Source: Ornithinimicrobium sediminis
GTDB lineage: Bacteria > Actinomycetota > Actinomycetes > Actinomycetales > Dermatophilaceae
Direction of reading: 5' to 3'
NCBI RefSeq assembly: GCF_021272345.1
Contig: NZ_JAJSDQ010000005.1
Span: forward strand, 62,001 to 126,000
Length of the DNA stretch: 64,000 bases
Made by a program: the position numbers and the translations under genes. The notes under the pieces are model-generated. The model made no database searches and had not been told where the DNA came from. It saw only the letters and a list, made by a program, of their open reading frames with translations. Shown one piece after another: positions 2,791-38,455 of the stretch; positions within the stretch are counted from its first letter, which is position 1; each line of letters opens with the position of its first letter.

Positions 2791-5037
2791 TCACTTCTGG
2801 GTTGCGTCGGTGGATCGGTTGCCGCCCTGGTCGCCGTCTCCCACGGCCTCGCTGACGGTGTCGGGCTCCTGCGGAAGGTCCTGAGCGGGGCCGGCGTCCG
2901 CCGCGACCGCACGCAGGGAGTCCTGCGCCGCCTCGACGACGGACTCTGCGGTCAGGCCGAACTCCTGGTACAGCCGCTCGTAGTCGGCCGAGGCGCCGAA
3001 GTGGTCGAGGCTGACCATCCGGCCGGTGTCCCCGACGAGGTCGCGCCAGCCCTGCGCCACGCCGGCCTCCACGCTGACCCGCGCCCGCACGGACGGGGGC
3101 AGCACCTCGTCGCGGTAGGCCTTGTCCTGGCGGGTGAACCACTCGAGGCAGGGCAGTGACACGACCCGTGTGGGGGTGCCGGCCGCCTGCAGGGTCTCGC
3201 GGGCGGCGACCGCCAGCTGCACCTCCGAGCCGGTGGCCACGAGGATGACCTCGGGGGCCCCACCGTCGGCGTCGGCCAGGACGTAGCCTCCTCGGGCCAC
3301 GCCGTCGGCGGAGGCGAAGGTCGCACGGTCGAAGGTGGGCACGTTCTGGCGGGTCAGGGCCAGCGCGCTGGGGTGGTCGACGGTCTCCAGGATGGTCCGC
3401 CACGCCACGGCAGTCTCGTTGGCGTCGGCCGGCCGGACCACGTCGAGGCCGGGGATGGCGCGCAGCGCCGCCAGGTGCTCCACCGGCTGGTGGGTCGGGC
3501 CGTCCTCACCGAGTCCGATGCTGTCGTGGGTCCACACGTAGATGACCGGCACCTGCTGGATGGCGGCCAGCCGCACGGCAGGTCGCATGTAGTCGGAGAA
3601 GATCAGGAAGGTCCCGCCGTAGGGCCGGGTCAGGCCCTCCAGGGCGATCCCGTTGAGGATCATGCCCATGGCGTGCTCCCGGACGCCGAAGTGCAGGGTG
3701 CGGCCGTAGGCGTTCCCGGGGAACATCTCCGTCGCCTTGCTCTCGGGGACGAAGCTGGGGACGTCCTTCATCGTCGTGTTGTTGGAGCCGGCCAGGTCGG
3801 CCGAGCCGCCCCACAGGTCCGGCATGACGTCGGCGAGTGCCGTCAGCACCTCGCCGGAGGCCTTGCGCGTAGCCATGCCGTCGTCGCTGGCCTCGAAGCT
3901 GGGGACGGCCTCGTCCAGACCGTCGGGGAGCCGCTTGTCGAGCAGCCGGTCCAGGAGGGCGGCCTGCTCGGGGTGCGCGTCCCGCCACGCGTCGTAGCGC
4001 TGCTGCCACTGTGCGTGCGCCTCCTGTCCTCGCTGCACGACCGAGCGCGTGTGCGCGAGCACCTCCGCCTCCTCGGGGAAGTGGACCTCGGGGTCGAACC
4101 CCAGGAGCCGCTTCGTGGCAGCGACCTCCTCGGCGCCGAGGGCCGACCCGTGGGCGGCACCGGTGTCGCGGGCGTCGGGAGCAGGCCAGGCGATGATGGT
4201 GCGCAGGAGCACCAGGGTGGGCCGGTCGGTCCGCTCGCGGCTGGCGGTCAACGCGGCGTGGAGCGCGTCGACGTCCTCGGTGTAGGTGTCGCGGGTGCGC
4301 CAGTCCACGACGTCGACGTGCCACCCGTACGCCTCGTAGCGCTGGGCGACGTCCTCGCTGAAGGAGATGTCGGTGTCGTCCTCGATGCTGATGTAGTTCT
4401 GGTCGTAGACGACGGTCAGGTTGGACAGCTCCTGGTGGCCGGCGAGCGACGAGGCCTCGCTCGAGACACCTTCCATCAGGTCACCGTCCGAGGCGACGAC
4501 CCAGATGTGGTGGTCGAAGGGCGACTCGCCCGGTGCTGCGTCCGGGTCCAGCAGGCCTCGCTGGCGCCGCTGTGCCATCGCCATCCCGACGGCGGAGGCC
4601 AGGCCGGACCCCAGGGGACCGGTGGTGATCTCCACGCCGGGGGTGTGGTGGACCTCCGGGTGACCGGGCGTCCTCGAGCCCCAGGTCCGCAGTGCCTTGA
4701 GGTCGTCCATCTCCAGGCCGTAGCCGCACTGGTAGAGCTGGATGTACTGCGTGAGGCTGGAGTGGCCGCAGGAGAGGACGAAGCGGTCGCGCCCGAGCCA
4801 GTGCGGGTCGCTCGGGTCGTGCCGCATGACCTGCTGGTAGAGCACGTACGCCAGGGGCGCCAGGCTCATGGCGGTGCCGGGGTGGCCGCTGCCGCAGTGC
4901 TCCACCGCGTCGGCGGCCAGGATGCGCACGGTGTCCACGGCCCGCACGTCCAGCTCGGTCCACCCGGCCTGGTCGGCGACGGGGAGCGCCAGCTGCGGGT
5001 CGCGCTCGGCGAGGAGGGTCTCGGTCTGGTCGGTCAC
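2791..5037 (-). CDS. tkt: Transketolase
   Basis: Thiamine-diphosphate enzyme that moves two-carbon ketol units between sugar phosphates. The 748-residue product shows GHPG at 51-54 and the ThDP/Mg-binding SDGDLMEG at 183-190 with its downstream Asn (Asn214), followed by the Pyr and C-terminal domains. It is somewhat longer than the usual ~700 residues because of an acidic tail of about 45 residues. The start is GTG at 5037, preceded by AAGGAG; the reading frame continues upstream to 5280 but that part crosses the divergent ctaB promoter region. First gene of the tkt-tal-pgi operon. Confidence 0.95.
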
Positions 5038-5134
5038 GGGGACTCCTTGCTGCAGTCGGATGTTTCGGCCGGTCGGTGCTCCGGTGAGTGGGCACACGTC
5101 CGGGACGCACACTGTGCGAACCAGGTCACGGTCG

Positions 5135-5140
5135 ACCTTA
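5135..5140 (-). promoter_or_regulatory. Candidate -10 box for the tkt-tal-pgi operon
   Basis: Reading the minus strand, TAAGGT fits the actinobacterial TANNNT -10 pattern and would give a leader of roughly 90 nt before the tkt GTG. No convincing -35 is visible. The 211-bp tkt/ctaB divergent spacer otherwise holds only the ctaB elements. Confidence 0.35.
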
Positions 5141-5179
5141 GTCCCGGACGCCCCTGACTCGCAGGTCCACGTGCGCAGG

Positions 5180-5185
5180 TAGGAT
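5180..5185 (+). promoter_or_regulatory. Candidate -10 box for ctaB
   Basis: TAGGAT matches the preferred actinobacterial -10 sequence; a CTGACT hexamer about 20 bp upstream is a weak -35. Transcription would begin near 5192, leaving a ~57-nt leader with a GAAGGA ribosome-binding site just before the GTG. Confidence 0.4.
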
Positions 5186-5248
5186 CGGGGCGGGCCCCGG
5201 CCACGGGGTGCCCGTCCGGAAAACCACCCCTCCGTCTCGAAGGATCTC

Positions 5249-6196
5249 GTGACCACGCTCGACCGCCGTTCGGCCGGCACCCCTGCACAGCCCCGGTGGC
5301 GCCAGGTGGTGCGTGACTACGTCGCGCTCACCAAGCCGCGCATCATCGAGCTCCTGCTGGTCACCACCTTCCCCGTCATGTTCCTGGCGGAGCGCGGCAT
5401 CCCGCCGCTGGGCCTCGTGCTCGCCACGCTGGTCGGCGGGGTCCTCGCCGCCGGCTCGGCCAACACCCTCAACTGCGTGCTGGACCGGGACATCGACGCA
5501 CGGATGCACCGCACCGAGAACCGCCCCCTGGTCACGGGGGCGATCCGTCCCCGGGCGGCGGTGGTGTTCGGCGTGGTGCTCGGGGTGGCCTCGGTCCTCT
5601 GGCTGGGTCTGCTGGTCAACACCCTGAGCGCACTGCTCGCACTCGGCGCGATCGTGCTGTACGTGGGCTTCTACACCATGCTGCTCAAGCGCAGGACCAG
5701 CCAGAACATCGTCTGGGGCGGTGTCGCCGGCTGCATGCCGGTGCTGATCGGCTGGTCTGCGGTCACCGAGTCGCTGGACTGGCCCGCGCTCGTGCTCTTC
5801 CTCGTCGTCTTCTTCTGGACCCCGCCGCACTACTGGCCGCTGTCCATGCGGTTCAAGGAGGACTACGCCAACGCCGGGGTGCCGATGCTCCCCGTCGTGG
5901 CCGAGGACGTCGCGGTGGGCCGCCAGATCGTGGCCTACACGTGGGTCACGGTCCTGACCTCGCTGGTGCTGGTGCCGGTCGCCCCCATGGGCTGGGTCTA
6001 CACCGTGACGGCCCTGGTCGCCGGCGGGGTGTTCGTCGTCGAGTCCCACCGCCTGCTCGGACGCGCCAGGCGAGGGGTCGCGGGTCCGGCGCTGGGAGCC
6101 ATGCGGCTCTTCCACTTCTCGATCAGCTACCTGACCCTGCTGTTCCTGTCTGTCGCGGTCGACCCGCTGCTCTACCTGCCGCTCCCGCTCGGCTGA
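5249..6196 (+). CDS. ctaB: Protoheme IX farnesyltransferase (heme O synthase)
   Basis: Attaches a farnesyl group to protoheme to make heme O, the precursor of heme A for cytochrome c oxidase. The 315-residue integral membrane protein has the UbiA-family allylic-diphosphate site [16 protein letters not shown] at 79-94 and a second conserved region [11 protein letters not shown] in the middle, with about eight to nine membrane segments. GTG start at 5249 with GAAGGA upstream. Its 3' end overlaps the convergent ctaA by 25 bp, so the two heme A genes share a termination zone but are transcribed towards each other. Confidence 0.96.
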
Positions 6197-7107
6197 GCCT
6201 CGGCGCTCGTCCCCTCCTGCCGGGCCACGAGAGCGCCCCGGTGCTCCTCGAGGGTGGAGCGCTGCGCCCAGGTGAGGGCCAGGGTGAGCAGGGCGGCACC
6301 CAGCATGTGCAGCGAGACCAGGGTGACCGGCAGGCCGGTGAAGTACTGCACGTAGCCGATGACGCCCTGCAGCAGCGTCACGACCAGCACCGCGTCCCAC
6401 CCGCGACGCAGCTGTGCGCCGGCTCCGAGGCGTCGCGAGAGGACGACGAGGGCGACGACGAGCCCGGTGAACAGCCACACGGACACGGCGTGCAGCCTGG
6501 CCATGGCCTCCGGGTCCAGGGCGAGCCGCGCGGGGGCGTCGGCGTCGCCGGAGTGGGGCCCGGCACCGGTGACCACCGTGCCGAGCACCATCACCACGAC
6601 CCCGACCGCGACGGTGGCCCACCCGAGGGGGCGCAGCCTGGACGGCGCCGCCTCCTCGGTCCGGCCGCCGGTGGTGTGCCAGACGAGCAGGGTGCTCACG
6701 GCGATGAGAGCCATGGAGATGAGGAAGTGGGCCATCACCGTCAGCGGGTGCAGGGCGGTGAGCACGGTGATGCCACCCAGGACGGCCTGGGCGAGCGTTC
6801 CCCCCAGCACGAGACCGGCCAGGAGCGTGAGCGGGCGCTGCCGTGCCCAGCGCCAGACCGCCAGCACGGTCAGCAGCGCGACCACTCCTACCAGGATGCC
6901 CAGCATGCGGTTGCCGAACTCGATGTAGGGGTGGATGCCGTCCGCCGGCTGGAAGCTCGGGGTGTAGGAGCCCGGCTCGCACTGCGGCCAGGTGGGGCAG
7001 CCCAGGCCGCTCCCGGTCAGGCGGACCAGGCCGCCGGTGACGACGATGAGCACCTGGACGACCAGGTTGAGGAGCAGGATCCGACGCAGCCAGGGATGGA
7101 CGAGCAC
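6172..7107 (-). CDS. ctaA: Heme A synthase
   Basis: Oxidises the C8 methyl of heme O to the formyl of heme A in the membrane, acting after CtaB. The 311-residue protein has about eight transmembrane helices, an N-terminal [17 protein letters not shown] segment with the conserved cysteine pair region after TM1, and the helix containing IEFGNRMLG. The GTG start at 7107 has GGAGGC directly upstream. The 3' end overlaps ctaB antisense by 25 bp. The C-terminal ~20 residues ([19 protein letters not shown]) are polar and likely cytosolic. Confidence 0.95.
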
Positions 7108-20026: not shown

Positions 20027-20091
20027 ACCCGTGACGTCGCTGCCTCGTGAGCAGCACGGGGAGGCGACACCTTCCGTTCCGGAGGAAGACC

Positions 20092-22116
20092 ATGCGAGTC
20101 TCTCATCGGCGTGCCACCACGCCGCGTTCCACGACCCCACATCCCACCACGCCACGCTCGACGACTGTCCGCCGCGGACTCGTCGGAGCGGCGATCGTCG
20201 CTCTGATGGCGGCGCTCGGCTGGACCCCGATGGCTTTCGCCACCCACTACGAGGCCACCCTGGAAGGCAGCATCTTCCAGATCGACGACGACGCCAACCT
20301 CAGGGTCGACCCCAGCGAGGAGGCAACGCTCGACTGGGCCAACGTGACCCAGATCAACAAGGACGACGCGCCGACCGGGCGTGACGACGACTCCTACAGC
20401 GGCGGCACCAAGGAGGACACCGTCTGTCCCGGTCAGACGACCGGCAGCATCCCCAACAACAAGAGTGACCTGCTGTCGTTCGGCGTCTACGAGGAGGCAG
20501 GCGACCCCGGCTTCCTCCACCTCTACTGGAGCAGGGTCAACGAGCCGTCAGGGACGACCCTGATGGACTTCGAGTTCAACCAGTCCGAGGAGGACTGTGC
20601 GCAGGGGCCCAACAAGACGCGGACCGAGGGCGACCTGCTCCTGGAGTACGCGATCGACCAGGGCGGCGCCCGCGCGGAGATCTACCTGCGCGAGTGGACC
20701 GGAAGCGACTGGGGCCCGGCCCGCAACATCGCGGACCCCGACCCCGTGACCGGTGAGGTCTACGCCACCGGCACCATCAACCAGTCCACCATCCCGGAGG
20801 GTGAGAGCGACGGCCTGGGCGAGATGTCACCACGCACCTTCGGTGAGGCCTCCATCGACCTGGACGTCATCTTCGACGAGGGCAGCTGCTCGTCCTTCGG
20901 CTCCGCCATGCTCAAGAGCCGGGCATCGGACTCCTTCACGTCCCAGCTCAAGGACTTCGTCGCGCCTGTCGGCATCACCCTGACGAACTGCGGCCAGGTG
21001 AAGATCACCAAGGAGACCGCCCCCGCAGGCGACGGGCCGGACTTCTCGTTCTCCAAGACCTTCGACACCGACCCGTCGAGCACGAACCGGGACGACTTCT
21101 CGCTCGGTGACGGTGAGACGGAGACGTTCTTGGGGGTGCTCTTCGGCACCGGGTACACCGTCACCGAGAACGAGCTGCCCGCAGGATGGTCCTTCGACCG
21201 CATCGACTGCGACGCCAGCAGCGCGGGCGTGAGCTATGCGATCGCGGACAGGACGGTGACCTTCGACATCCTCGACGAGGACGACGTGCTGGACTGCACG
21301 TTCTACAACGAGGCGCTGGCCGACCTGACGATCGTCAAACAGGTCACCGACGACCCGGGTGGGCAGACGTTCGGCTTCACCAGCACCTCGCTGGCACCGG
21401 CCGCCTTCGACCTGACCCCGACGGCGACAGGAGAGGCAGGTGAGGACAGCCGCGAGTTCTCCGGTATCGCCACGGGCACCTACGACGTGGACGAGACAGT
21501 GCCGGCCGGCTGGAACCTCACCAGCGCCACCTGTGACAACGGTGACGAGCCCGACGCCGTCACCGTGGGTGCCGGGGACGCGGTCACCTGCACGTTCGTC
21601 AACGCCAGGGAGCGAGGTGCCATCGAGATCACCAAGACCCGCAAGCACGCCGCTGCCGAGGGCGGTGAGGATGCCCATGCCGGGGTGGACTTCGCCGTCA
21701 CCAGTGACGACTACCCGGAGGTGGACCTCACGGTGACCACGGGGGCCGACGGGACGGCCTGTGTGCCCGACCTGCTGTTCGGCGACTACACCGTGACCGA
21801 GACGGTGCCGAACGGCTACGTCAGCGAGGACGCCGAACAGGACGTGGCCGTGGTCGCCGAAGCCGGCTGCGGCGAAGACATCGCCGCCGCCGCGGACGTC
21901 TCCTTCGTCAACACGCCCTTGACGGACGTCACCGTCACGGTCGACAGCCAGGTCGACGGTGGCACGGCTTCCACGATCTCGTGCGTGGACGGGGAGGGCG
22001 CTCTCGTGGAGGAGGACCTGACCAACGCCCCTGGCGACGTGGAGCTGGCCATCGAGGACCTCGAGCCGACCGCACCGGCCGCCACGTTGGTCTGCACGAT
22101 CGTGGTCGACCCCTGA
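20092..22116 (+). CDS. Secreted surface protein with repeated prealbumin/SpaA-like domains
   Basis: A 674-residue exported protein. A long N-terminus rich in Thr, Pro and Arg precedes a hydrophobic signal segment ending near MAFATHYEA (about residue 50). A unique N-terminal domain (about 50-305) is followed by three or four beta-sandwich repeats beginning VKITKETAPAG, LTIVKQVTDDPG and IEITKTRKHAA, each with a YTVTE/YDVDE strand and often a Cys-Asp/Asn pair, as in SpaA/Cna-B type domains. No LPXTG or C-terminal membrane anchor is present. ATG 20092 follows GGAGG at good spacing; an ATG at 20047 lacks it. Function is unknown; adhesin or matrix protein is a guess. Confidence 0.78.
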   Translation: MRVSHRRATTPRSTTPHPTTPRSTTVRRGLVGAAIVALMAALGWTPMAFATHYEATLEGSIFQIDDDANLRVDPSEEATLDWANVTQINKDDAPTGRDDDSYSGGTKEDTVCPGQTTGSIPNNKSDLLSFGVYEEAGDPGFLHLYWSRVNEPSGTTLMDFEFNQSEEDCAQGPNKTRTEGDLLLEYAIDQGGARAEIYLREWTGSDWGPARNIADPDPVTGEVYATGTINQSTIPEGESDGLGEMSPRTFGEASIDLDVIFDEGSCSSFGSAMLKSRASDSFTSQLKDFVAPVGITLTNCGQVKITKETAPAGDGPDFSFSKTFDTDPSSTNRDDFSLGDGETETFLGVLFGTGYTVTENELPAGWSFDRIDCDASSAGVSYAIADRTVTFDILDEDDVLDCTFYNEALADLTIVKQVTDDPGGQTFGFTSTSLAPAAFDLTPTATGEAGEDSREFSGIATGTYDVDETVPAGWNLTSATCDNGDEPDAVTVGAGDAVTCTFVNARERGAIEITKTRKHAAAEGGEDAHAGVDFAVTSDDYPEVDLTVTTGADGTACVPDLLFGDYTVTETVPNGYVSEDAEQDVAVVAEAGCGEDIAAAADVSFVNTPLTDVTVTVDSQVDGGTASTISCVDGEGALVEEDLTNAPGDVELAIEDLEPTAPAATLVCTIVVDP

Positions 22117-22230: not shown

Positions 22231-23166
22231 TCAGCCCAGGTCGCTCGCCTCGAAGGTGTCGCACCGGTTGGGGTCGCCGCTCTCGTAGCCGGTCAGGAAC
22301 CAGCGCTGGCGCTGCTCCGCGGAGCCGTGCGTCCACACGTCGGGGTTGATGCGACCCGAGGTCTGCGCCTGGATGCGGTCGTCACCGACCGCCTCGGCGG
22401 CACTCAGGGCCGACTCCACCTGCTCCTGGGTGACGGGCTCGAGCAGCGTCCGTCCCTCGGCGTCCTCGGTCTGGGAGGCATGGTGCACCCAGACGCCGGC
22501 GAAGCAGTCGGCCTGCAGCTCCACGCGCACGGCGCCGGACTCCGGGCCCTGCCTGTCCTGCTGCGAGGCGGACAGCGCCCCCGTGAGGTTCTGCACGTGG
22601 TGGCCGTACTCGTGCGCCACGACATACATCTGTGACAGCGAGCCACCGTCGCCGCCCAGCTGCTCCAGCTGGTCGAAGAAGCCGGTGTCGAGGTAGATCG
22701 TCGAGTCGACGGGGCAGTAGAAGGGGCCGACGCTGCTGTCGGCCGCGCCACAGCCGGTGTCGACGGAGCCCGAGAAGATGATGGTCTGGGCGGGCTGGTA
22801 GGCGGAGTAGACGCTCTCCCAGTAGTCCTGGACCGAGATCACGGTCCCGACGATGCGGCAGTCGATGTGCTCGTTGGCGTCCGCCCCGGTCTGGCAGTGC
22901 GGGAAGTCGTCCTGGGACGCGCTGCCCTCGCCGTCGGCGGCGCCCACGTACTGCGAGGAGTACTGCATCGGGCTGCTGCCGAGGACCTCACCCGGGGCCG
23001 AGCCCCCGGTGAGACCGCCACCCCCACCGAAGATCATGAACAGGACGAGCAGCAGCAGGCCGCCGATCCCCCCGCCGGCGGCGACGGTGCCACCGCCGGG
23101 ACGCCGCCCGCCGCCACCCCGGCGGACCTGGTCGGTCTTCAGGCTGGCGTTCTCGCGGAACGTCAT
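22231..23166 (-). CDS. ypfJ: YpfJ-family neutral zinc metallopeptidase
   Basis: A 311-residue single-pass membrane protease. A basic, Gly-rich N-terminus leads into a transmembrane helix (about 33-50). The catalytic domain follows, with the zinc motif HEYGHH at 185-190 (His185, Glu186, His189), the third-ligand region ELQADCFAGVW, and paired cysteines that could form disulfides outside the membrane. ATG 23166 is preceded by GGAGG. The frame stays open far upstream but only as antisense to the divergent ABC-F gene. Physiological substrates of this family are not known. Confidence 0.9.
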   Translation of the reverse strand: MTFRENASLKTDQVRRGGGGRRPGGGTVAAGGGIGGLLLLVLFMIFGGGGGLTGGSAPGEVLGSSPMQYSSQYVGAADGEGSASQDDFPHCQTGADANEHIDCRIVGTVISVQDYWESVYSAYQPAQTIIFSGSVDTGCGAADSSVGPFYCPVDSTIYLDTGFFDQLEQLGGDGGSLSQMYVVAHEYGHHVQNLTGALSASQQDRQGPESGAVRVELQADCFAGVWVHHASQTEDAEGRTLLEPVTQEQVESALSAAEAVGDDRIQAQTSGRINPDVWTHGSAEQRQRWFLTGYESGDPNRCDTFEASDLG

Positions 23167-23208
23167 CGGGTCCTCCACGGCGCGGGGAGCAGGGATGTCA
23201 TCCAGCAC

Positions 23209-23228
23209 ACGATACGCCCGCGTAGACT
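23209..23228. promoter_or_regulatory. Divergent -10 candidates for the metalloprotease and ABC-F genes
   Basis: On the minus strand TATCGT (23214-23209) could serve the metalloprotease gene. On the plus strand TAGACT (23223-23228) could serve the ABC-F gene. Both fit TANNNT and lie in the 120-bp spacer between the two starts. Confidence 0.35.
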
Positions 23229-23286
23229 GGGACGTCGCCGTCCGGCCCCCCGGAGTCCCCGTCCCCGCCCCAGGAGTGAAACCCCC

Positions 23287-24885
<1,599 letters not shown>

Positions 24886-24995
24886 CCGGGGCACCCCGAC
24901 CATGTCGTCCGGTCCCACCGTGTCCGTCCGGTGCCCGGTGCGGAATCCCGGACCCGGCGGCAGCGTTGTCCGGCCGAGAGATACGAGGTGATCGC

Positions 24996-27944: not shown

Positions 27945-29006
<1,062 letters not shown>

Positions 29007-29037
29007 CAGCCCACCACGAGCCGACGAGGGACGACAG

Positions 29038-29793
29038 ATGCTGCTGCAGGACAAGAAACTGCTGATCACCGGGGTCCTGACCGACTCCTCCATCGCCTTC
29101 CACGTGGCCCGCCTGGCCCAGGAGCAGGGCGCTGAGGTGGTGCTCACCTCGTTCGGGCGCACCACGCGCATCACCCAGGCGATCGCCCGGCGGCTGCCGC
29201 AGCCGGCGCCCGTCGTCGAGCTTGACGTCAGCAACGACGAGCACCTGGCCACCCTCGCCGATCGGGTGAGCGAGCACGTCGACCGGCTCGACGGGGTGCT
29301 GCACTCCATCGGGTTCGCACCGCGGGGCGCCTTCAACTTCATGGAGGCGGAGTGGGAGGACGTCGCGACAGCCGTGCACGTGTCCGCCTACTCGCTCAAG
29401 GCCCTGGCCAAGGCGTCACTGCCGCTGATGGGCACGGGAGGCAGCGTCGTCGGTCTCACGCTGGACGCGCAGTACGCCTGGCCGGTCTACGACTGGATGG
29501 GTGTCGCCAAGGCTGCCTTCGAGTCGACCAACCGCTACCTGGCACGTGACCTGGGCGCCATGGGCATCCGCAGCAACCTCGTCTCGGCCGGACCCATCTC
29601 TACCACCGCCGCCAAGTCGATCCCGCAGTTCGACCAGTTCGCGACCTGGGGCGAGCACGCACCGCTGGGCTGGGACGTCAAGGACCCGGTGCCTGCTGCG
29701 AAGGCCTGTGCCGCGCTGCTGTCCGACTGGTTCCCGGCCACCACCGGTGAGATCGTCCACGTCGACGGCGGCTTCCACGCGACAGGGTTCTGA
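29038..29793 (+). CDS. fabI: Enoyl-[acyl-carrier-protein] reductase (FabI/InhA type)
   Basis: Catalyses the last reduction step of each fatty acid elongation cycle. The 251-residue protein has the FabI nucleotide-binding start LLITGVLTDSSIA, and the enoyl reductase triad Tyr151-x6-Lys158 within YDWMGVAKAA. It ends with IVHVDGGFHATGF. ATG 29038 follows GAGGGA. FabG and FabI form the membrane-lipid part of this operon; the Mur ligase gene begins 3 nt after its stop and is probably co-transcribed. Confidence 0.95.
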   Translation: MLLQDKKLLITGVLTDSSIAFHVARLAQEQGAEVVLTSFGRTTRITQAIARRLPQPAPVVELDVSNDEHLATLADRVSEHVDRLDGVLHSIGFAPRGAFNFMEAEWEDVATAVHVSAYSLKALAKASLPLMGTGGSVVGLTLDAQYAWPVYDWMGVAKAAFESTNRYLARDLGAMGIRSNLVSAGPISTTAAKSIPQFDQFATWGEHAPLGWDVKDPVPAAKACAALLSDWFPATTGEIVHVDGGFHATGF

Positions 29794-29796
29794 TCG

Positions 29797-32010
29797 ATGA
29801 GCTCCGCCGAGTCCGTCGACCGCGACGGTGCCGGCGACCCTGTGGTCGTGCGCGAGGTGCGCATCCTGGAGGGTCCCAACCTCTACTTCCCGCGTCCGGC
29901 GGTCAAGGTCAGCCTGTCCCTGCCGGGGTACCAGGCAGCAGCACAGGCCCAGATGCGTCAGCTGGCGGAGGAGCTCGGGCTGCGCCGAGCCGCACCGGGC
30001 AAGCCGCACACCGAGCAGCGCCACCGTTTCCTCGTCAGGCTCGTCAGCGTCGTGCTGCGCCGGGTCGGCGCCAGGGCGGGCAGCCGTCTGGCGGTGCGCG
30101 GGCGCACGGTGGCCGACCTCGACGACGTCGTGGTGGCCTTCCCCTGGCGGAGCCGCGGCCGCGGGCAGGCACTGGGGGAGGCGCTCGGCGAGGTGCTGCG
30201 CGCCATGCTCACCGGCCAGGGAGGCGAGGAGGCGCTGGCCGGCGCCGCTGACCGGGTGGCCGCCGCCGAGCGGGGCGCCCCACCGGCGCAGCTGAGGCCG
30301 CGGATCCCGGTGGCCTCCATCACCGGCACCAACGGCAAGACGTCCACCACACGGCTGCTGGCGCACATGGGCATGACGGCGGGCCTGCGCACGGGCTGGA
30401 GCTCCACGGAAGGGGTCTTCGTCCAGGGGGAGCGGGTCGTCTCCGGCGACTACTCCGGACCCTCCGGCGGTCGGCACGTGCTGACAGCACCAGGGGTGCA
30501 GCTCGGCATCCTGGAGACGGCCCGCGGCGGCCTGCTGCTCAAGGGGATGGGCGTCGTGCACAACGACGTCAGCGTGGTCACCAACGTGACGGCCGACCAC
30601 CTCGGACTGCACGGGGTCGACACCGTGGACCAGCTCGCCGAGGTCAAGAGCATCATTACCCGGGTGACCCGCAAGGAGGGCTGGGTCGTCCTCAACGGGG
30701 ACGACCCACGGGTCCGCGCGATGGCCACCCAGGCCAGCGGGCGGATCTGGATGTTCAGCCTGCACCCCGACTCACCGGCGCTGCGCGAGGCCCTGGACTC
30801 GGGAGGCCGCGGCATCACCGTCCTGGACGGCGACATCGTCATCCTGCGACGGGACGCCGACCCTGAGCGGCTGGTCCGCGTCGTCGACGTCCCGATGACG
30901 CTCTCCGGTCTCAGTGAGCACAACATCGCCAACGCCCTGGCCGCCACGGCTGCCGCCCTGGGCCTCGGTCTGCCCCGTGAGCATGTCGTCGAGGGGCTGC
31001 GGACCTTCGCCCCCGACCTGCAGCACAACCCGGGCCGCATGAACGTCTGGACCGTGCCGCTCCCGGCAGGGGGCAAGGGCACGGTCATCGTCGACCTCGC
31101 GCACAACGAGGCCGGCCTGGACGCGCTGCTGACGGTCGCCGAGGGTCTGCGCCCGCCCGGCTCCCGCGTGCACCTCGGTCTCGGCGGTGTCGGTGACCGC
31201 ACCGACGACATCCTGGTTGGGCTGGGCGAGATGGCCGGGCGCCGCGCCGACCGGGTCGAGATCACCCACAAGGGCCACTACCTGCGGGGGCGCACCCTCG
31301 AGGGCCTCGAGGCACAGTTCGTGCAGGGGCTGGCCAACGTCGGTGCCGTGGCCGCTGGTGTGTCGGCGACGGAGGTCGAGGGCCTGGCCGCGCTCGTGGA
31401 GCACATGGCCGAGGGCGACGTCGGCGCGCTCATGTGCCACGCCGAGCGCCCGGCCGTGGTGCAGTGGCTCGAGGAGCACGGCGCCACGGCCGACACCCCC
31501 CGGCAGATCCGCCGCAAGGTCATCGCTGCACGCGGGGAGCACGAGCTGGAGTCGGTGCTCGCAGCCGTGGCCGACCAGCGCGGCGCGGACAGGGTCAGCG
31601 CCGCCCGAGACCTGGTCGAGGCCCACCCCGGTGACCCCCGCCTCGTCTACGAGCTCGCCTCCGCGCTCGACGCCGACGGTGACGAGGAGTCCGCCGTCGT
31701 GCACTACCGGGCGGCGCTGGCCCAGGGCCTGCGGGAACCGCACCGCTTCCGGGCGCAGGTGCAGCTCGCCTCGAGCATGCGCACCCTGGGCCAGCGCGCC
31801 GAGGCGGCCGAGCTGCTCGCCGAGGTGGCCGCGAGCCGTCCTGACAGCGCCGCCGTGGCGGTGCTCCGCGCCCTGCTGGCCGCAGACGAGGGGCACGCCG
31901 AGGACGGGGTGGCGGGACTCGTCGACTTCGTCATGACGCATGCGACGGGGGCCGACGACGTGGGCTACCGCCCGGCGATGCTGGCCTACGCCCAGGCCCT
32001 GCGCGGCTGA
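29797..32010 (+). CDS. CphA-like Mur ligase fused to a C-terminal TPR domain
   Basis: A 737-residue ATP-dependent amide ligase homologue. Residues 1-170 resemble the N-terminal domain of cyanophycin synthetase (REVRILEGPNLYFP against the CphA sequence ESRVYRGPNIWNYE). A Mur-ligase domain follows, with P-loop GTNGKT at 177-182, NVTADHLGLHG and VDLAHNEAGLDAL. The ATP-grasp domain found between these parts in true CphA is absent. Residues about 580-737 are all-helical with TPR-like pairs (ARDLVEAHPGDPRLVYELASAL and so on; quoted in part). ATG 29797 lies 3 nt after fabI. It is convergent with cphA. It could add a side-chain amino acid to a polymer or act on cyanophycin fragments; this is inference. 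Confidence 0.8.
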   Translation: MSSAESVDRDGAGDPVVVREVRILEGPNLYFPRPAVKVSLSLPGYQAAAQAQMRQLAEELGLRRAAPGKPHTEQRHRFLVRLVSVVLRRVGARAGSRLAVRGRTVADLDDVVVAFPWRSRGRGQALGEALGEVLRAMLTGQGGEEALAGAADRVAAAERGAPPAQLRPRIPVASITGTNGKTSTTRLLAHMGMTAGLRTGWSSTEGVFVQGERVVSGDYSGPSGGRHVLTAPGVQLGILETARGGLLLKGMGVVHNDVSVVTNVTADHLGLHGVDTVDQLAEVKSIITRVTRKEGWVVLNGDDPRVRAMATQASGRIWMFSLHPDSPALREALDSGGRGITVLDGDIVILRRDADPERLVRVVDVPMTLSGLSEHNIANALAATAAALGLGLPREHVVEGLRTFAPDLQHNPGRMNVWTVPLPAGGKGTVIVDLAHNEAGLDALLTVAEGLRPPGSRVHLGLGGVGDRTDDILVGLGEMAGRRADRVEITHKGHYLRGRTLEGLEAQFVQGLANVGAVAAGVSATEVEGLAALVEHMAEGDVGALMCHAERPAVVQWLEEHGATADTPRQIRRKVIAARGEHELESVLAAVADQRGADRVSAARDLVEAHPGDPRLVYELASALDADGDEESAVVHYRAALAQGLREPHRFRAQVQLASSMRTLGQRAEAAELLAEVAASRPDSAAVAVLRALLAADEGHAEDGVAGLVDFVMTHATGADDVGYRPAMLAYAQALRG

Positions 32011-32115: not shown

Positions 32116-34965
32116 TCAGAGGGCGGGAGCCTCGGCGTCGACGTAGTCGGTGCGCGCCTCCTGGCCGGACGCCTCCGCGGCGTCGTGCAGCTCCACCGGG
32201 TCCAGGTCCGGGTCGCCGGCACGCTCCTCGTCCGCACGTGCCCCGGCATACGCCGAGTTGCCCAGGGACTCGAGCTCGGTGAGCACCCGTGCGTGCTTGT
32301 CGACGCACATCACCACGAGGTCCCCCGGGTTCGCCAGCACCATCGACTCGCGCACCGCGTCGACCTCCTCCGGCACGACCCGCACCGACTTGGCACGGAC
32401 CTCGCCGGACTGGATGCGGGCACGCACGCCCTCGGCGACGAGCTCGGCGGCGGCACCGTGCGGCCGTCCTCGGCGGTTGTCGTCCTCCCGGACGACCAGC
32501 ACGTCGAAGAACTGGGCCGCGACCTCACCCAGCTCGCGGATGTCGGCGTCGCGCCGGTCACCGGCGGCGCCGATGATGCCGATGCGCGCGGCGCGGACCG
32601 CACCGCTCTGGTGGGCCCGCTGCTCGGACAGGTTGTCGACGAACTCACCCAGGGCCCGCATCCCGGCCGGGTTGTGGCAGTAGTCCACCACCACGCTGAC
32701 CCCCTTGACGTCGAGCATGTTCAGGCGCCCGGGTGACAGGTAGTACGACGTGGTGAAGGTGCGCAGGCCCTGCCGTATGTCGTGCAGCGGGGCGTCGACC
32801 GCGAAGGCGGCGCCGGCCGCGGCCATGGCGTTGGCGACGTTGAACCGTGCAGCGCCGCCGAAGGTGCTCGGCAGCAGGTGTGTCCAGGCCAGCTGCATGC
32901 TGCGACGACCGTGCCGGATGACGATCATCTCGCCACGGTCGCTCGGCTCCAGCACGACGGCACGGCCGCCGCGGCGCAGCCGGGCGTCGATGAAGGCGCG
33001 CTCCGGCGAGCCGGGGGGCTGCATCGAGAACCAGACGACCCCGCCGCTGCAGTGCCGGCGCATCTCGCGCACGTTGGGGTCGTCGGCGTTCAGCACTGCG
33101 AACCCGTCACGGGGCACCGCCTCGACCACCACCCGCTTGACCGCCGCCAGCTGCTCGACGGTGTCGATGCCCCGCAGCCCGAGGTGGTCGGCGGCCACGT
33201 TGGTCACCACGGCGACGTCGTTGCGGTCGTAGCCCAGGCCCTCGCGCAGGATGCCGCCACGGGCCACCTCCATGACGGCGAAGTCGACCCGGGGGTTCTG
33301 CAGCACCATGCGGGCCGACTTGGGACCCGAGGCGTCGGACCGCTTCACCAGCCGCTCGTCGATGACGATGCCGTCGGTCGAGGTCATGCCGACCTGACGA
33401 CCCAGGCCCTTCATGATGTGCGCGATCATCCGCGAGGTCGTGGTCTTGCCGTTGGTGCCGGTCACCGCCACGATCGGCACGCGGGAGGGTGACCCCGGGG
33501 GGAAGAGCAGGTCGACGACCGGCTTGGCGATGTACTGCGGCTCGCCCACGGTCGGGTGGGTGTGCATCCGGAAGCCGGGGGCCGCGTTGACCTCGCAGAT
33601 GGCGCCGCCGGTCTCGCGCACCGGTGCCGAGATGTCGGGGCAGATGAAGTCGATGCCGGCGACGTCCAGGCCGATCAGCCGCGCGGCCTCCTCGGCGATC
33701 TCGACGTTCTCGGGGTGCGCGTCGAAGGTGCGGTCGACGGAGATGCCACCGGTCGACATGTTGCCGGTGAGCGCCAGCCTGACCATCTCGCCCTCGGGCG
33801 GGACGTCGTCCATCTCGTAGCCCTGCTGGCGGACCAGCTCCACGGCGCCGTCGGTCACGGTGATCCGGGTGAGGACCTTCTCGTGGCCGACACCGCGGCG
33901 CGGGTCGGCGTTGGTGGTCTCCACCAGCTCGGAGACGGTGTGCGTGCCGTCGCCGATGACGTGGGCGGGGACCCGCTCGGCGATCGCCTGCATGCGCCCA
34001 CCGACGATCAGGCAGCGGTAGTCGTTGCCGGTGATGAACGACTCCACGACCATGATCCCGCGCCGGGACTGCGCGTGGGCGGTCGGCCAGTGGGCCCGCA
34101 CCGCCACCTCGTCCCTGAGGTCGATGCCCACACCGCGCCCGTGGTTGCCGTCCAGGGGCTTGACGACCACCGGGTAGCCGATGCGCTCGGCGACCGCGAC
34201 CGCTCCGTCCTCGGTGCGCACCGTGTCGCTGGCCGGCACCGGCAGGCCGGCCGAGGAGAGCAGGGTGTTGGTGAGGGCTTTGTCACCGGCGATGTCGACG
34301 GCCAGGGCGCCGGTGCGGGAGGTCATGGTGGCCCGGATGCGCTGCGCGTGCACGCCCTGGCCGAGCTGCACGAGGGAGGCGGTGTTGAGGCGCAGCCACG
34401 GGATGTCCCGCGCCTGGGCCTCCTCGATGATGGCCGCGGTCGAGGGCCCGAAGGCGGTGCGCTCCGCCAGTCGCAGGAAGTCGTCGAGCTCGGTGGCGAA
34501 GTCGAAGTCCGGGTCGTGCGCGACGGCGGAGTTGACCATCCGCACCGCCAGGCGACCGGCCGCCAGGCCGACCCGCTCGTCGAGGAAGCCGAAGATGACG
34601 TTGTACCGTCCCGGGACGCCACGCACCATGCGGGTCTTGCCGCGACGCATGTCGTGGCCGGCCTCCGCCTGCAGCTGCAGGGCGAGGTGCTCCGCGACGT
34701 GGCCCATCCAGGTGCCCTCCTGGAGCCGCTCGACGAAGCCGCCGACGCGCCCCCGTGAGCAGGTGTGCTGTCCCAGACCGGGCAGCCACTCCAGGACCTG
34801 CTCGGTGAACCCGGGCAGGGTGTGGGAGGGGTACTCCTCGAGGATGCCGAGGTCGACGACGAGATGGACGGCCTGCTCGTAGTTCCAGATGTTGGGGCCG
34901 CGGTAGACGCGCGACTCGACGATCTGCAGCTCCGGGGCAGCAGGGGCGGAGGGGGTGGAGGTCAC
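32116..34965 (-). CDS. cphA: Cyanophycin synthetase
   Basis: Builds the storage polymer multi-L-arginyl-poly-L-aspartate from Asp and Arg with ATP. The 949-residue protein has the full CphA1 order: N-terminal domain (1-160, RVYRGPNIWNYEQAVHLV), ATP-grasp domain (about 222-490, with VVVKPLDGNHGRGVGI and ICEVNAAPGFRMH), and a Mur-ligase domain from about 495 with P-loop GTNGKTTT at 503-510. It exceeds the usual ~870-900 residues by an acidic C-terminal tail of about 60. GTG 34965 is preceded by GAGGAG. It follows cphB by 12 nt in one operon. Confidence 0.95.
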   Translation of the reverse strand: MTSTPSAPAAPELQIVESRVYRGPNIWNYEQAVHLVVDLGILEEYPSHTLPGFTEQVLEWLPGLGQHTCSRGRVGGFVERLQEGTWMGHVAEHLALQLQAEAGHDMRRGKTRMVRGVPGRYNVIFGFLDERVGLAAGRLAVRMVNSAVAHDPDFDFATELDDFLRLAERTAFGPSTAAIIEEAQARDIPWLRLNTASLVQLGQGVHAQRIRATMTSRTGALAVDIAGDKALTNTLLSSAGLPVPASDTVRTEDGAVAVAERIGYPVVVKPLDGNHGRGVGIDLRDEVAVRAHWPTAHAQSRRGIMVVESFITGNDYRCLIVGGRMQAIAERVPAHVIGDGTHTVSELVETTNADPRRGVGHEKVLTRITVTDGAVELVRQQGYEMDDVPPEGEMVRLALTGNMSTGGISVDRTFDAHPENVEIAEEAARLIGLDVAGIDFICPDISAPVRETGGAICEVNAAPGFRMHTHPTVGEPQYIAKPVVDLLFPPGSPSRVPIVAVTGTNGKTTTSRMIAHIMKGLGRQVGMTSTDGIVIDERLVKRSDASGPKSARMVLQNPRVDFAVMEVARGGILREGLGYDRNDVAVVTNVAADHLGLRGIDTVEQLAAVKRVVVEAVPRDGFAVLNADDPNVREMRRHCSGGVVWFSMQPPGSPERAFIDARLRRGGRAVVLEPSDRGEMIVIRHGRRSMQLAWTHLLPSTFGGAARFNVANAMAAAGAAFAVDAPLHDIRQGLRTFTTSYYLSPGRLNMLDVKGVSVVVDYCHNPAGMRALGEFVDNLSEQRAHQSGAVRAARIGIIGAAGDRRDADIRELGEVAAQFFDVLVVREDDNRRGRPHGAAAELVAEGVRARIQSGEVRAKSVRVVPEEVDAVRESMVLANPGDLVVMCVDKHARVLTELESLGNSAYAGARADEERAGDPDLDPVELHDAAEASGQEARTDYVDAEAPAL

Positions 34966-34977
34966 GTCGGGCTCCTC

Positions 34978-35895
34978 TCAGCGCCGCAGGGCGGCAGCGG
35001 CGTTGGCGGTCTCGTGCACGTCGGTGGGCGAGGTGACGACAGCGACCTCGGGGTACTGCTCCCGGAAGTCGGTCAGCGTGACCTGGCCGAGGTCGAAGGT
35101 GGCGCCGTAGGGCAGCGAGTGGACGACGGCACCGGACACGAGCAGGGGCGCGTCCCGGCGTGCCTCGTGGGCGTCACTCACCGCCGCCCGGCCGTCCACC
35201 ACGTAGACCGACCCGGTGCCCACCACGGTCAGCACACGCTCGTCCACGATCTCGGCCGCCGTGTCCTCGTCGACGCCGACCCCCAGCAGGCTCGGTGACC
35301 CGGCGACCAGGGAGAGCAGCCGGGCGTAGCGGGTGCGCTGGGCGAAGTGCTGGTCGAGGATCACCCCGGGCAGCAGTCCGAACCCGGCCGTGAGCTGCCC
35401 GGCACGCTGGCGGGGGGTCACGCCCTCGTCGCCCAGGGAGATCATGAACTGGCTGAGGACCGAGGCACCCGCCGAGGTGCCGGCGACGACCGCGCCTCGC
35501 TCGTAGGCTCGCCGGATCGCCTCGTGCAGGGGGGTGCCGACGATGAGCTGGCCGAGCTTGAGCTGGTTGCCCCCGGTCACGAACACCCCGGTGGCGTCGT
35601 CGACTGCCGCGACGAGCTCGGGGTCACCGGACTGGTGTCGGGTCTGCGGGTCCACGGCGGTCACGTCCGTGGCGTGCAGACGCTCGAACACCGACCGGTA
35701 GACCGCGACGGCCTCCTCGGCCAGGGATGACGCCGAGGGGATCACCACGATGCGCGCCGCGCGCCCTCCCGCGAGGGCGACGAAGCGCTTGAGGACGAGC
35801 ACCCGACGGCGCTTGTCCTCGGCACCGCCGATGACGAACAGCCTGCGTGGTGGGGCCTCGGTCACGTCGGCATCGGAGGGGTCGGCGTGTGGCAT
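34978..35895 (-). CDS. cphB: Cyanophycinase
   Basis: Serine peptidase that hydrolyses cyanophycin to beta-Asp-Arg dipeptides. The 305-residue protein has FVIGGAEDK at the N-terminus, VFVTGGNQLKL, and the nucleophile elbow GTSAGAS with Ser141, followed by LLPGVILDQHFAQRTR, all typical of the S51 cyanophycinase group. ATG 35895. It lies between glgC and cphA on the same strand, so synthesis and breakdown enzymes of the polymer share one transcript. Confidence 0.95.
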   Translation of the reverse strand: MPHADPSDADVTEAPPRRLFVIGGAEDKRRRVLVLKRFVALAGGRAARIVVIPSASSLAEEAVAVYRSVFERLHATDVTAVDPQTRHQSGDPELVAAVDDATGVFVTGGNQLKLGQLIVGTPLHEAIRRAYERGAVVAGTSAGASVLSQFMISLGDEGVTPRQRAGQLTAGFGLLPGVILDQHFAQRTRYARLLSLVAGSPSLLGVGVDEDTAAEIVDERVLTVVGTGSVYVVDGRAAVSDAHEARRDAPLLVSGAVVHSLPYGATFDLGQVTLTDFREQYPEVAVVTSPTDVHETANAAAALRR

Positions 35896-35904
35896 GGGAG
35901 CACT

Positions 35905-37173
35905 CTAGGCGCTGTGGGCACCCTCGATCACGGTCCCCTTGCCGATCACGACCAGACCCGAGTCGGTCACCGTGAAGCCGCGTGCCCGGTCGTGGTCGTG
36001 GTCCACCCCGACCGAGGTGCCGGGGGGCACCACGACGTTCTTGTCGATGATGGCGCGCCGGATCGTGCACCCCCGGTGCACCTCGACGTTGTCCAGCAGC
36101 ACGGAGTCGGTGACGGTGCTGAAGCTGTGCACCCTGACGCGGGGCGAGAGCACCGAGCGGGTGACCGACGCTCCGCTGATGACCACGCCGGGCGAGACCG
36201 CCGAGTCCAGGGCCTGGCCGATCCGGTCGTTCGAGCCGTGCACGAACTTGGCCGGGGGTGGGCAGCCGTAGTTGGTCAGGATCGGCCACTCGTCGTTGTA
36301 GAGGTTGAACACCGGGTGGACCGAGACCAGGTCCATGTGCGCCTCGAAGTAGGAGTCCATGGTGCCGACGTCGCGCCAGTAGCCGCGGTCGCGGTCGGTG
36401 GCGCCCGGCACGTCGTTGGCACTGAAGTCGTAGACGTAGCCCTCGCCACGGTCGACGAAGGCGGGGACGATGTCACCGCCCATGTCGTGCTTCGAGCCGT
36501 CCTTGTGCGCGTCCTCGGTCACCGCGCGTTCGAGGACGTCGGCGTCGAAGACGTAGTTGCCCATGGAGGCGAAGACCTCGTCGGGGGAGTCCGGCAGGCC
36601 CGGCGCGTCGGTCGGCTTCTCCAGGAAGCGCGCGATCCGCTGGGGGTCCTCGGGGTCGACGTCGATGACGCCGAACTGGTCGGACAGCGACCGCGGCTGG
36701 CGGATGCCCGCCACCGTGACACCGGCACCGGTCTCGATGTGCTGGTCGACCATCTGCGAGAAGTCCATCCGGTAGACGTGGTCTGCGCCCACCACCACGA
36801 CGATGTCGGGCCGCTCGTCGTGGATGAGGTTCAGGCTCTGGTAGATGGCGTCGGCGCTGCCGGCGAACCAGTGCTTGCCCATCCGCTGCTGGGCAGGCAC
36901 CGGGGCGACGTAGTTGCCCAGGAGGTTGGTCAGCCGCCAGGTCTTGGTCACGTGGGTGTCGAGGCTGTGCGACTTGTACTGCGTCAGCACGACCACCTTG
37001 CGGTAGCCGGAGTTGACGATGTTGGACAGGGCGAAGTCGATCAGACGGTAGGGACCGCCGAACGGCACAGCCGGTTTGGCCCGGTCCGCCGTCAGCGGCA
37101 TCAGCCGCTTGCCCTCACCTCCGGCCAGCACGATCGCCAGAACGTTCAGCCTGCTGCGCGACGTCTTTGCCAT
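35905..37173 (-). CDS. glgC: Glucose-1-phosphate adenylyltransferase (ADP-glucose pyrophosphorylase)
   Basis: Makes ADP-glucose for glycogen synthesis. The 422-residue enzyme has the nucleotide-binding [20 protein letters not shown] near the N-terminus, the sugar-phosphate region [10 protein letters not shown]-like (here [13 protein letters not shown]), FLEKP and a C-terminal left-handed beta-helix ([20 protein letters not shown]). ATG 37173, preceded by a -10-like box rather than a ribosome-binding site. Unusually, cphB begins 9 nt after its stop, joining carbon- and nitrogen-reserve genes in one probable transcript; glgA is divergent. Confidence 0.95.
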
Positions 37174-37185: not shown

Positions 37186-37249
37186 GGGGACAGCAGGCGG
37201 ACCGGGCGAGAGGTAGCCGGGGGACGGCGGCGCCGATAGCGTGAGCGGG

Positions 37250-38455
37250 GTGCAGATCGACATCCTGACCCGCGAGTACCCGCCCAACATCTACGGAGGG
37301 GCGGGGGTGCACGTGAACGAGCTGACCCGCGCCCTGCGCTCCAGAGGGGACGTCCAGGTGCAGGTGCGCGCCTTCGACGACCCGGTCGAGGAGGAGGGCA
37401 CGACAGGGTATGCCGCGCTGCCGCAGCTGGCCGAGGCCAACCCGGCTCTGCGGACCCTCGGCGTCGACCTCACCATCGCCGCGGACGTCGTCGCGGCCGC
37501 GCCGGACCTGGTGCACAGCCACACCTGGTACGCCAACTTCGCGGGCCACCTGGCCTCGCTGGTCGGCGGGATGCCGCACGTCATCTCCGCGCACTCCCTC
37601 GAGCCCATGCGGCCGTGGAAGGCCGAGCAGCTGGGCGGTGGCTACCGCCTGTCCAGCTACGTGGAGCGCACGGCATACGAGGGCGCGGCCGCGGTCATCG
37701 CGGTCTCGGAGGGGATGCGCCGCGACGTGCTCGCGAGCTACCCGGACATCGACCCCGACAAGGTCAAGGTCGTCCACAACGGCATCGACTCCGAGCAGTG
37801 GCAGCGGGACACCAGCGAGGCTGCGCGCACGGTCGTCACCGGCCACGGCATCGACCCCGACCGCCCGAGCGTCGTCTTCCTCGGCCGGATCACCCGGCAG
37901 AAGGGGCTGCCCTACCTGCTGCGCTCCCTGCGCAGGATCCCCGACGACACCCAGATCGTGCTCCTGGCCGGGGCCCCGGACACCCCGGAGATCAAGGACG
38001 AGGTCGTCGCCCTCGTGGACCAGCTGCGCGCCGAGCGTGGCGGACCGGTGGTGTGGATCGCCGAGATGCTGCCCCGCGACCAGGTCGTCGCTGTGCTCTC
38101 GCACGCCACCGTCTTCGTCTGTCCCTCGGTCTACGAGCCGCTGGGCATCGTCAACCTGGAGGCCATGGCCTGTGGGGCGGCCGTCGTGGCGACCGCCACG
38201 GGAGGCATCCCGGAGGTCGTCGTGCACGGCGAGACCGGGTGGCTGGTGCCCATCGAGCAGGTCACCGACGGCACCGGGACGCCGGTCGACGAGGACCGCT
38301 ACGTCGCCGACTTCGCCGCAGCCATGAACGACGCCCTGTCGGACCCGGCCCGCGCCCAGCGGATGGGCCAGGCGGGCCGTGAGCGCGCCATCCGGGACTT
38401 CTCCTGGGACACCATCGCCGAGCGCACCCTGGAGGTCTACCGCTCGGTGCTCTGA
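37250..38455 (+). CDS. glgA: Glycogen synthase, Corynebacterium/GT4 type
   Basis: Transfers glucose from ADP-glucose in glycogen (or maltose-1-phosphate) synthesis. About 401 residues; two Rossmann domains with EYPPNIYGGAGVHV at the N-terminus, VHSHTWYANFAGHLA, and the donor-site region VYEPLGIVNLEAMACG. The start is set at GTG 37250 (VQIDILTREYPP) because relatives begin at this point; GTG 37241 in the same frame is an alternative. A GATAGC element just upstream may be the promoter. Divergent from glgC. Confidence 0.93.
   Translation: MQIDILTREYPPNIYGGAGVHVNELTRALRSRGDVQVQVRAFDDPVEEEGTTGYAALPQLAEANPALRTLGVDLTIAADVVAAAPDLVHSHTWYANFAGHLASLVGGMPHVISAHSLEPMRPWKAEQLGGGYRLSSYVERTAYEGAAAVIAVSEGMRRDVLASYPDIDPDKVKVVHNGIDSEQWQRDTSEAARTVVTGHGIDPDRPSVVFLGRITRQKGLPYLLRSLRRIPDDTQIVLLAGAPDTPEIKDEVVALVDQLRAERGGPVVWIAEMLPRDQVVAVLSHATVFVCPSVYEPLGIVNLEAMACGAAVVATATGGIPEVVVHGETGWLVPIEQVTDGTGTPVDEDRYVADFAAAMNDALSDPARAQRMGQAGRERAIRDFSWDTIAERTLEVYRSVL

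Follow-up and report, generated by a model that had tools for sequence, protein, structure and literature searches.

What does a second CphA-like ligase do beside a complete set of cyanophycin genes? The question is raised by an open reading frame (P0001) in a stretch of 64,000 nucleotides from Ornithinimicrobium sediminis (contig NZ_JAJSDQ010000005.1, positions 62,001 to 126,000), called the window below, with positions counted from its first letter. The frame (29797..32010, forward strand, +) starts with ATG and encodes 737 amino acids, which were assigned by Pfam, NCBIfam and predicted fold to a CphA-related Mur-type ligase fused to a tetratricopeptide repeat (TPR) domain. At the level of sequence, its domains, the complete catalytic set, the co-inheritance with cphA and the altered substrate-facing residues could be established. 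What the ligase does, which donor and acceptor it uses, what it makes and what its TPR binds are inferred from them; the reading tentatively put forward is that it is an active amide ligase in cyanophycin metabolism whose donor is not arginine and for which the TPR would be an optional docking arm.

The N domain of the ligase (residues 16-160, 29842..30276, +) was related to the CphA N domain by hhalign, fold, and motif and charge counts; it retains the GPN motif, lacks the HxxEH peptidase motif and has a basic net charge. It is followed by the Mur ligase middle (M) domain (residues 175-387, 30319..30957, +), matched by Mur_ligase_M (PF08245, 1.9e-20, 74.1 bits, cut-off 24), in which the P-loop GTNGKT (residues 177-182, 30325..30342, +) was identified from the sequence, with K181 at the place of K499 of T. 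erythraeum CphA1 (excerpt of PMC9427784). The Mur ligase C-terminal "lid" domain (residues 411-564, 31027..31488, +) was delimited by the fold and by Mur_ligase_C (PF02875), which matched residues 427-542 with 2.7e-6 and 28.7 bits, just over the cut-off of 28.4. The lid includes R414 (R731 in CphA1), H436 (H748) and a YLRGR motif (residues 495-499, 31279..31293, +; defined by residue counts over 75 ligases), which occupies the site where CphA has an acidic motif such as EDDNPRGR and MurE its DNPR motif. The TPR domain with nine predicted helices (residues 580-737, 31534..32007, +) was found by Pfam, sequence search and model, and TPR_5 (PF12688) matched residues 616-735 (1.7e-18, 67.4 bits, cut-off 24.2).

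No ATP-grasp family was found in the ligase by the Pfam scan, and a hidden ATP-grasp domain was rejected, as the modelled N domain leads directly into M. The CphA N-domain family PF18921 gave no match to the first 160 residues at E 0.01. A profile of 32 ligase orthologues was aligned with a profile of 31 CphA N domains (three of 34 CphA omitted) over 129 columns with probability 63 and E 6.9e-5, and two control profiles gave probabilities of 0.1 and 0.2 (E 0.37 and 0.42). By this profile comparison and the predicted fold, the ligase N domain appears as kin to the CphA N domain.

With both of its domains (PF08245 and PF02875) over their cut-offs, the ligase belongs to the Mur ligase superfamily. 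Its closest solved relatives by sequence, from residue 161 onward, were cyanophycin synthetases, with 231.8 bits to a CphA1 chain. The CphA1 family TIGR02068 scored 344.7 bits through the M part alone (residues 166-549; model 475-850 of 862), below the whole-protein cut-off of 850. The ligase has a CphA1-type N domain and the ATP-site residues of the CphA1 M domain, and the G (ATP-grasp) domain is missing. CphA2 is defined by a working ATP-grasp domain, which is absent from the ligase. The MurE family TIGR01085 gave 83.5 bits, under the NCBIfam cut-off of 257.3, and no DNPR-type motif of MurE was present.

An AlphaFold2 model of the ligase (39 aligned sequences) had a predicted local distance difference test score (pLDDT) of 90.5 and a predicted template modelling score of 0.81. 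Residues 16 to about 564 of the model match CphA1 chains end to end, using about 520 of about 870 chain residues, with Z 41.0 for 7txv (523 residues, 4.9 A) and Z 38.7 for 7wae (518 residues at 2.6 A, ligase 16-562 to CphA1 1-877), and the best MurE chain came next (Z 26.9). Because the model aligns to CphA1 across 518 residues, N and M are predicted to keep the CphA arrangement. The structure listing for the whole model (VIA-align) consisted of CphA and Mur chains, and the TPR was tested separately by Foldseek. The tail alone, modelled from five sequences (pLDDT 90.2, nine helices), matched the solved TPR proteins MamA, the OGT TPR and designed TPRs, and TPR proteins were also recovered by sequence search. 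An earlier note on this DNA had described a CphA-like N domain, an intact Mur ligase with GTNGKT at 177-182, no ATP-grasp and about 158 extra TPR-like residues at the C-terminus; this architecture was borne out by Pfam, hhalign and the fold, with a TPR fold present and ATP-grasp absent.

Is the ligase still an enzyme? Residues were counted in 75 ligases fetched as loci, which are fewer than those found and include close relatives, and in 43 CphA; second or partial copies in L122-L135 (among them G754, G745, G729 and G726) and the truncated CphA of L091 were omitted. Sixteen conserved Mur-ligase positions were identical in all 75 ligases (G177, G180, K181, T182, T204, E240, N263, D267, H268, K284, R414, D433, H436, N437, D467 and R468). 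Of these, K181, T182, T204, E240, R414 and H436 correspond to K499, T500, T522, E558, R731 and H748 of CphA1, which contact ATP or Mg according to an excerpt of PMC9427784.

The substrate-facing residues were replaced. In CphA1, E607 together with S603 contacts bound cyanophycin (excerpt of PMC9262961), and this position was Glu in 43/43 CphA and in none of the 75 ligases, which have Arg or Lys (68/75) or else Thr, Gln or Trp. The five residues before R805 include at least two acidic ones in 40/43 CphA and none in the other three; among the ligases there is no acidic residue in 42/75, one in 33/75 and never more, and at least one basic residue or His occurs in 75/75 ligases against 26/43 CphA. 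Position 803 (Y495 of the ligase) is Tyr in 75/75 ligases, with the exact YLRGR in 66 and a near variant in the others, and the S542 position is Gly in all 75. Cx19HxxEH was present in 39/44 CphA, including that of the window, and the N-domain HxxEH in 0/75 ligases. The anchored N-domain charge ranged from 0 to +18 in 73 ligases and from -9 to +1 in 34 CphA (no anchor in 2/75 ligases and 10/44 CphAs). Since the acidic donor-motif stretch is mostly gone and the charge along the polymer path is changed, the donor is probably not Arg.

The ligase is convergent with an adjoining full-length cphA (32116..34965, -), whose cyanophycin synthetase has all three domains N, G and M (Pfam) as well as Cx19HxxEH and scored 1141 bits with TIGR02068 (cut-off 850), and the cyanophycinase gene cphB (34978..35895, -; TIGR02069, 235.5 bits, cut-off 126.6) lies beyond it; true cphA and cphB next door were thus correctly recognized in the earlier note. 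Distribution was followed in five overlapping whole-genome samples, each including the genome of the window. Among the relatives, the same full-length fusion was found in 14/58 genomes with a CphA-like match adjoining it, and neither was found in the others. In the order, 28/396 genomes had the ligase, all with a CphA-like match, and none had a CphA-like match alone. In the window's family, the ligase was present in 101/186 genomes and CphA in 102 (99 over the curated cut-off), and all 101 were among the 102. In the phylum sample, CphA was found in 21/296 genomes (20 over the cut-off, one in pieces) with at least part of the ligase in all 21, and both stood on one contig in 16/21, convergent in 16/16. 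In the class sample, searched with an unfused Nocardioides ligase, 30/394 genomes had the ligase, 30/30 with a CphA-like match. No whole ligase was found in any CphA-less genome among the sampled relatives, order, family and class. Over 23 loci, ligase and CphA distances were correlated (r=0.91), with the ligases changing about 1.5 times faster. A different order, cphB-cphA-ligase on one strand, was found in the two plasmids inspected, from Shinella and Ruegeria.

Several single genomes deserve mention. The only CphA genome of the family outside the 101 (G751, contig C255; L128, L134) has a tandem of CphA and a proteobacterial-type YLRGR ligase in place of the usual pair, perhaps foreign DNA from contamination or transfer; when L134 was searched at the DNA level together with its flank, the matches listed were to neighbouring aldolase genes and not to the ligase. 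In the same family, a fragment at the end of a contig is all that a 58% complete genome (G726) shows of the ligase, and G754 (C171, C34; 84% complete, 4% contaminated) has two copies of the ligase-cphA pair and may be a mixed assembly. In a further genome of the phylum (G288, 67% complete), the ligase and the end of CphA lie at a contig edge.

Did the ligase arise from cphA in these bacteria? A tree of M domains was built with three MurE outgroup rows, 17 CphA-type sequences, 12 actinobacterial ligases and three proteobacterial-type ligases. The 17 CphA-type domains, which cover actinobacterial, alphaproteobacterial, Deinococcus, cyanobacterial and divergent actinobacterial CphA and two with a separate G loss, formed one clade (support 99/99). 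Outside it stood the 12 actinobacterial ligases (97/99) and the three proteobacterial-type ligases (99/98). A recent duplication of cphA within Actinomycetota was rejected as the origin of the ligase (approximately unbiased (AU) test, p=0.0046), and so was a grouping of the proteobacterial-type ligases with alphaproteobacterial-type CphA (p=1.6e-5). A tree with only the divergent f100 CphA outside (p=0.108) and a single clade of all ligases (p=0.406) were not rejected. The ligase family is old and is built as CphA minus its G domain. N+M may have been ancestral to CphA: the tree places the ligases outside CphA, but the alternative topology (p=0.108) stands.

Cyanophycin modification fits best because the ligase is a relative of CphA whose catalytic set is complete and whose gene is inherited together with cphA. 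In the proposed mechanism, the ligase would bind ATP at the P-loop and activate, as acyl-phosphate, the carboxylate of an acceptor lodged between N domain and Mur core. Beneath the lid, this carboxylate would then be joined to the amino group of a donor amino acid, the chemistry with which CphA adds Arg onto Asp. Better guesses than Arg would be a donor that is neutral or acidic, or else an acceptor of greater acidity. The ligase would give the cyanophycin pool a side chain, chain end or primer of distinct chemistry, with the TPR as a later, optional dock. There are reports of Lys, ornithine, citrulline and Glu in cyanophycins, mostly ascribed to low specificity of CphA (excerpt of PMC8560796), and a dedicated second ligase would therefore not be chemically strange. 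In the bolder form of this proposal, which is unlikely, the ligases retain the pre-ATP-grasp architecture of cyanophycin synthetase and make their own product, so that the CphA-ligase pair of actinobacterial and some alphaproteobacterial cells yields either cyanophycin in which a side chain other than arginine is mixed in, or a further isopeptide polymer for storage.

Several observations weigh against the proposal of a non-arginine cyanophycin ligase. Among the CphA-bearing genomes of the class, 7/37 were without ligase, which makes the ligase dispensable for cyanophycin as such, and the alphaproteobacterial-type ligase (at least 80% covered) was found in only 4/22 plasmid records with a CphA-like match, two of the four being the inspected Shinella and Ruegeria plasmids. 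Shared descent alone would yield much of the correlation between ligase and CphA distances, and the actinobacterial gene order, convergent with cphA and here behind fabI, gives no support for co-regulation with cphA. As for the residues, one acidic residue before R805 is retained in 33/75 ligases, mostly Glu at the D801 place, and position 802 is basic in 68/75 ligases but also in 13/43 CphA. The stretch before R805 presumably sits at the DNPR motif of MurE, and that it reads the incoming amino acid would follow from this position in MurE, not from a CphA-Arg structure. The charge change could also reflect protein contacts.

The genome counts thus show that the ligase accompanies CphA, yet CphA manages without the ligase; a strict, obligate pairing was ruled out by the same seven genomes of the class. 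Three of the seven have two complete CphAs, three have a divergent CphA and one has a CphA nearest to the alphaproteobacterial type. The first three (G843, G863 and G878, of one genus; L156-L161) have CphAs 61-62% and 68-70% identical to that of the window, each sharing its locus with a cyanophycinase; their second CphA may substitute for the ligase. Eight of the plasmid records (Rhizobium, Sphingobium, Mesorhizobium and Pelagibacterium) had a single matching place, annotated as cyanophycin synthetase.

Other readings of the same protein have to be weighed. The ligase might be a second Arg (or Lys) side-chain ligase, which finishes or repairs unsubstituted Asp left by CphA and uses the donor of the CphA M domain. 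That the M domain of CphA is its nearest characterised relative (231.8 bits; TIGR02068 344.7 bits over 166-549), that the R-x-R of the motif is retained with one acidic residue before it in 33/75 ligases, and that CphA enzymes accept several side-chain donors (excerpt of PMC8560796) speak for this reading; it is nevertheless somewhat unlikely, since the two or more acidic residues before R805 seen in 40/43 CphA occur in no ligase, E607 is replaced in 75/75 and the adjoining CphA is complete. The basic N domain and the basic residues of the donor motif would also suit an enzyme that acts on another acidic metabolite or polymer, with the cphA adjacency being inherited gene order and not shared function. 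Its position directly behind fabI, on the opposite strand to cphA, agrees with this; the whole ligase was never found without CphA in the sampled genomes, the different order cphB-cphA-ligase occurs on two alphaproteobacterial plasmids and the ligase and CphA distances co-vary, which make a substrate outside cyanophycin improbable.

If the protein were instead a regulatory or non-catalytic member of CphA oligomers and its TPR a scaffold, this could account for the CphA-like N+M fold, the TPR domain and the co-inheritance. The complete catalytic set in 75/75 ligases and the existence of unfused ligases without TPR make it quite improbable. The earlier note had proposed modification of cyanophycin side chains or recycling of beta-Asp-Arg, here taken as that released by cyanophycinase. 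Of the two, modification (of the side chain or the end of the chain) still fits best, while recycling, to which the adjoining cphA and cphB would lend themselves, gained no specific support and is very improbable, as the positions that contact the Arg-rich chain in CphA are altered in the ligase. CphA2 works through its ATP-grasp domain, and this domain is missing in the ligase. It is CphA2 that polymerises beta-Asp-Arg according to an excerpt of PMC9262961.

When was the TPR acquired? In the window's family, the TPR was present on 98/101 ligases (aligned to query residue 707 or beyond), so the fusion, regarded in the earlier note as less usual, is locally common. The ligases of G729, G374 and G525 end sooner, and the TPR profile found nothing in their frames, where the TPR is lost or degenerate. 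In the order, the same fusion also turned up in a second family (f5), in two genomes. The TPR profile, built from the 16 fused ligases that it then recovers, also recovered five stand-alone proteins and 0/16 unfused ligases, and gave no match in L136-L165, loci from other parts of the class. Orthologues checked beyond the window's family and f5 have no TPR. This agrees with the earlier note, which named a stand-alone Mur ligase beside cphA in some actinobacteria, and the unfused ligase does occur more widely. In a first tree, from which one Deinococcus row (L096, split copy) was omitted, the 16 fused ligases formed one group (Shimodaira-Hasegawa-like approximate likelihood ratio test, 99), and a single fusion with later decay is therefore the simplest history. 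The stand-alone TPR_5 (PF12688) proteins, open frames of 184-263 amino acids in five genomes of the order, share the TPR tail, and the 5-10 kb of DNA retrieved around them contained neither ligase nor cphA in any of the five cases. A role of the TPR as partner arm, raised in the earlier note, is plausible, and the domain would be a later, optional docking arm.

Upstream of the ligase, the enoyl-ACP reductase gene fabI (28981..29793, +) has its stop 3 nt ahead of the ligase ATG, and the two genes, on the same strand, are probably cotranscribed; fabI is overlapped by a fabG-like short-chain dehydrogenase gene (28227..29006, +; Pfam). No promoter- or terminator-like site was found in the gap between the ligase and cphA. 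Beyond cphB are a glgC-like sugar nucleotidyltransferase gene (35905-37173, -) and a glgA-like glycosyltransferase gene (37241-38455, +), both assigned by Pfam. The Dermatophilaceae include the former Tetrasphaera. With glgC and glgA beside cphB-cphA, the cluster is of the type of Tetrasphaera "Group 2" in an excerpt of PMC10687191, whose cluster section is without mention of this ligase and in whose text "Mur ligase" is absent. Elsewhere in the window, an 895-amino-acid frame (22231-24918, -) has a zinc metallopeptidase of the KPN_02809 family (PF04228) at residues 599-889 and no Pfam match in its first 598 residues, and a 689-amino-acid SpaA-type surface protein with prealbumin-like domains is encoded at 20047-22116 (+). 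Neighbourhood clustering by longest open reading frames gave mostly spurious antisense frames (9/10 proteins lacking a Pfam match) and was not used.

No description of this ligase was found in the open-licence literature, though an older one may exist, and cyanophycin, Mur ligase and tetratricopeptide together gave no match there. For the "second cphA" genes of betaproteobacteria an older description may exist, which could cover the proteobacterial branch. "Mur ligase" did not occur in the text of PMC10206079, which surveys the genes of cyanophycin. This family of Mur ligases, related to CphA, with a signature of its own and one branch with TPR, appears to be undescribed in the open-licence literature searched. 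The making of cyanophycin is generally credited to a single synthetase, and a second ligase with a complete catalytic set, inherited with CphA and using a different substrate, would, if true, change the polymer expected in these bacteria. The former Tetrasphaera are abundant in wastewater plants, where they remove phosphorus, and which compounds they store has yet to be settled (excerpt of PMC9123174). The ligase family is also a lead on how Mur-type and ATP-grasp ligases merged into one enzyme.

Among known systems, the muramyl ligase MurE (DNPR-type), the outgroup of the tree, shares the Mur core, the lid fold and the catalytic residues with the ligase, and differs in its N domain and in the DNPR motif, which the ligase lacks. 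The G-less CphA of the Legionella adelaidensis (L098) and Deinococcus deserti (L097) plasmids share N+M without ATP-grasp; unlike the ligase, they match PF18921, have no YLRGR and have M domains inside CphA, and therefore represent separate losses of G. In L098, this CphA (4326-6194) has N (Cx19HxxEH) and M and is followed by cyanophycinase and isoaspartyl peptidase genes; in L097 (plasmid 3), it lies at 4044-6218 and groups with Deinococcus CphA, and no cyanophycinase was among the annotated genes of the 11 kb shown. A Deinococcus sp. KNUC1210 plasmid (L096, 288-7204) has cphA, isoaspartyl peptidase, cyanophycinase and a second CphA-like gene annotated as two overlapping frames. The Shinella and Ruegeria plasmids (L094, L095) have, downstream of their cphA and on one strand with cphB-cphA, a "Mur ligase family protein" that shares N+M without G, SGPxGxR and YLRGR; it has no TPR and a longer, more divergent N domain, and forms a separate, well-supported branch. 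With CphA1 (TIGR02068), the ligase has in common the N domain, MurE-like core and lid in equal relative places, the P-loop, the catalytic residues and the gene cluster, and it is set apart from CphA1 by the missing ATP-grasp (G) domain and HxxEH, the replaced substrate-facing residues, the basic N domain, the extra TPR and a separate clade.

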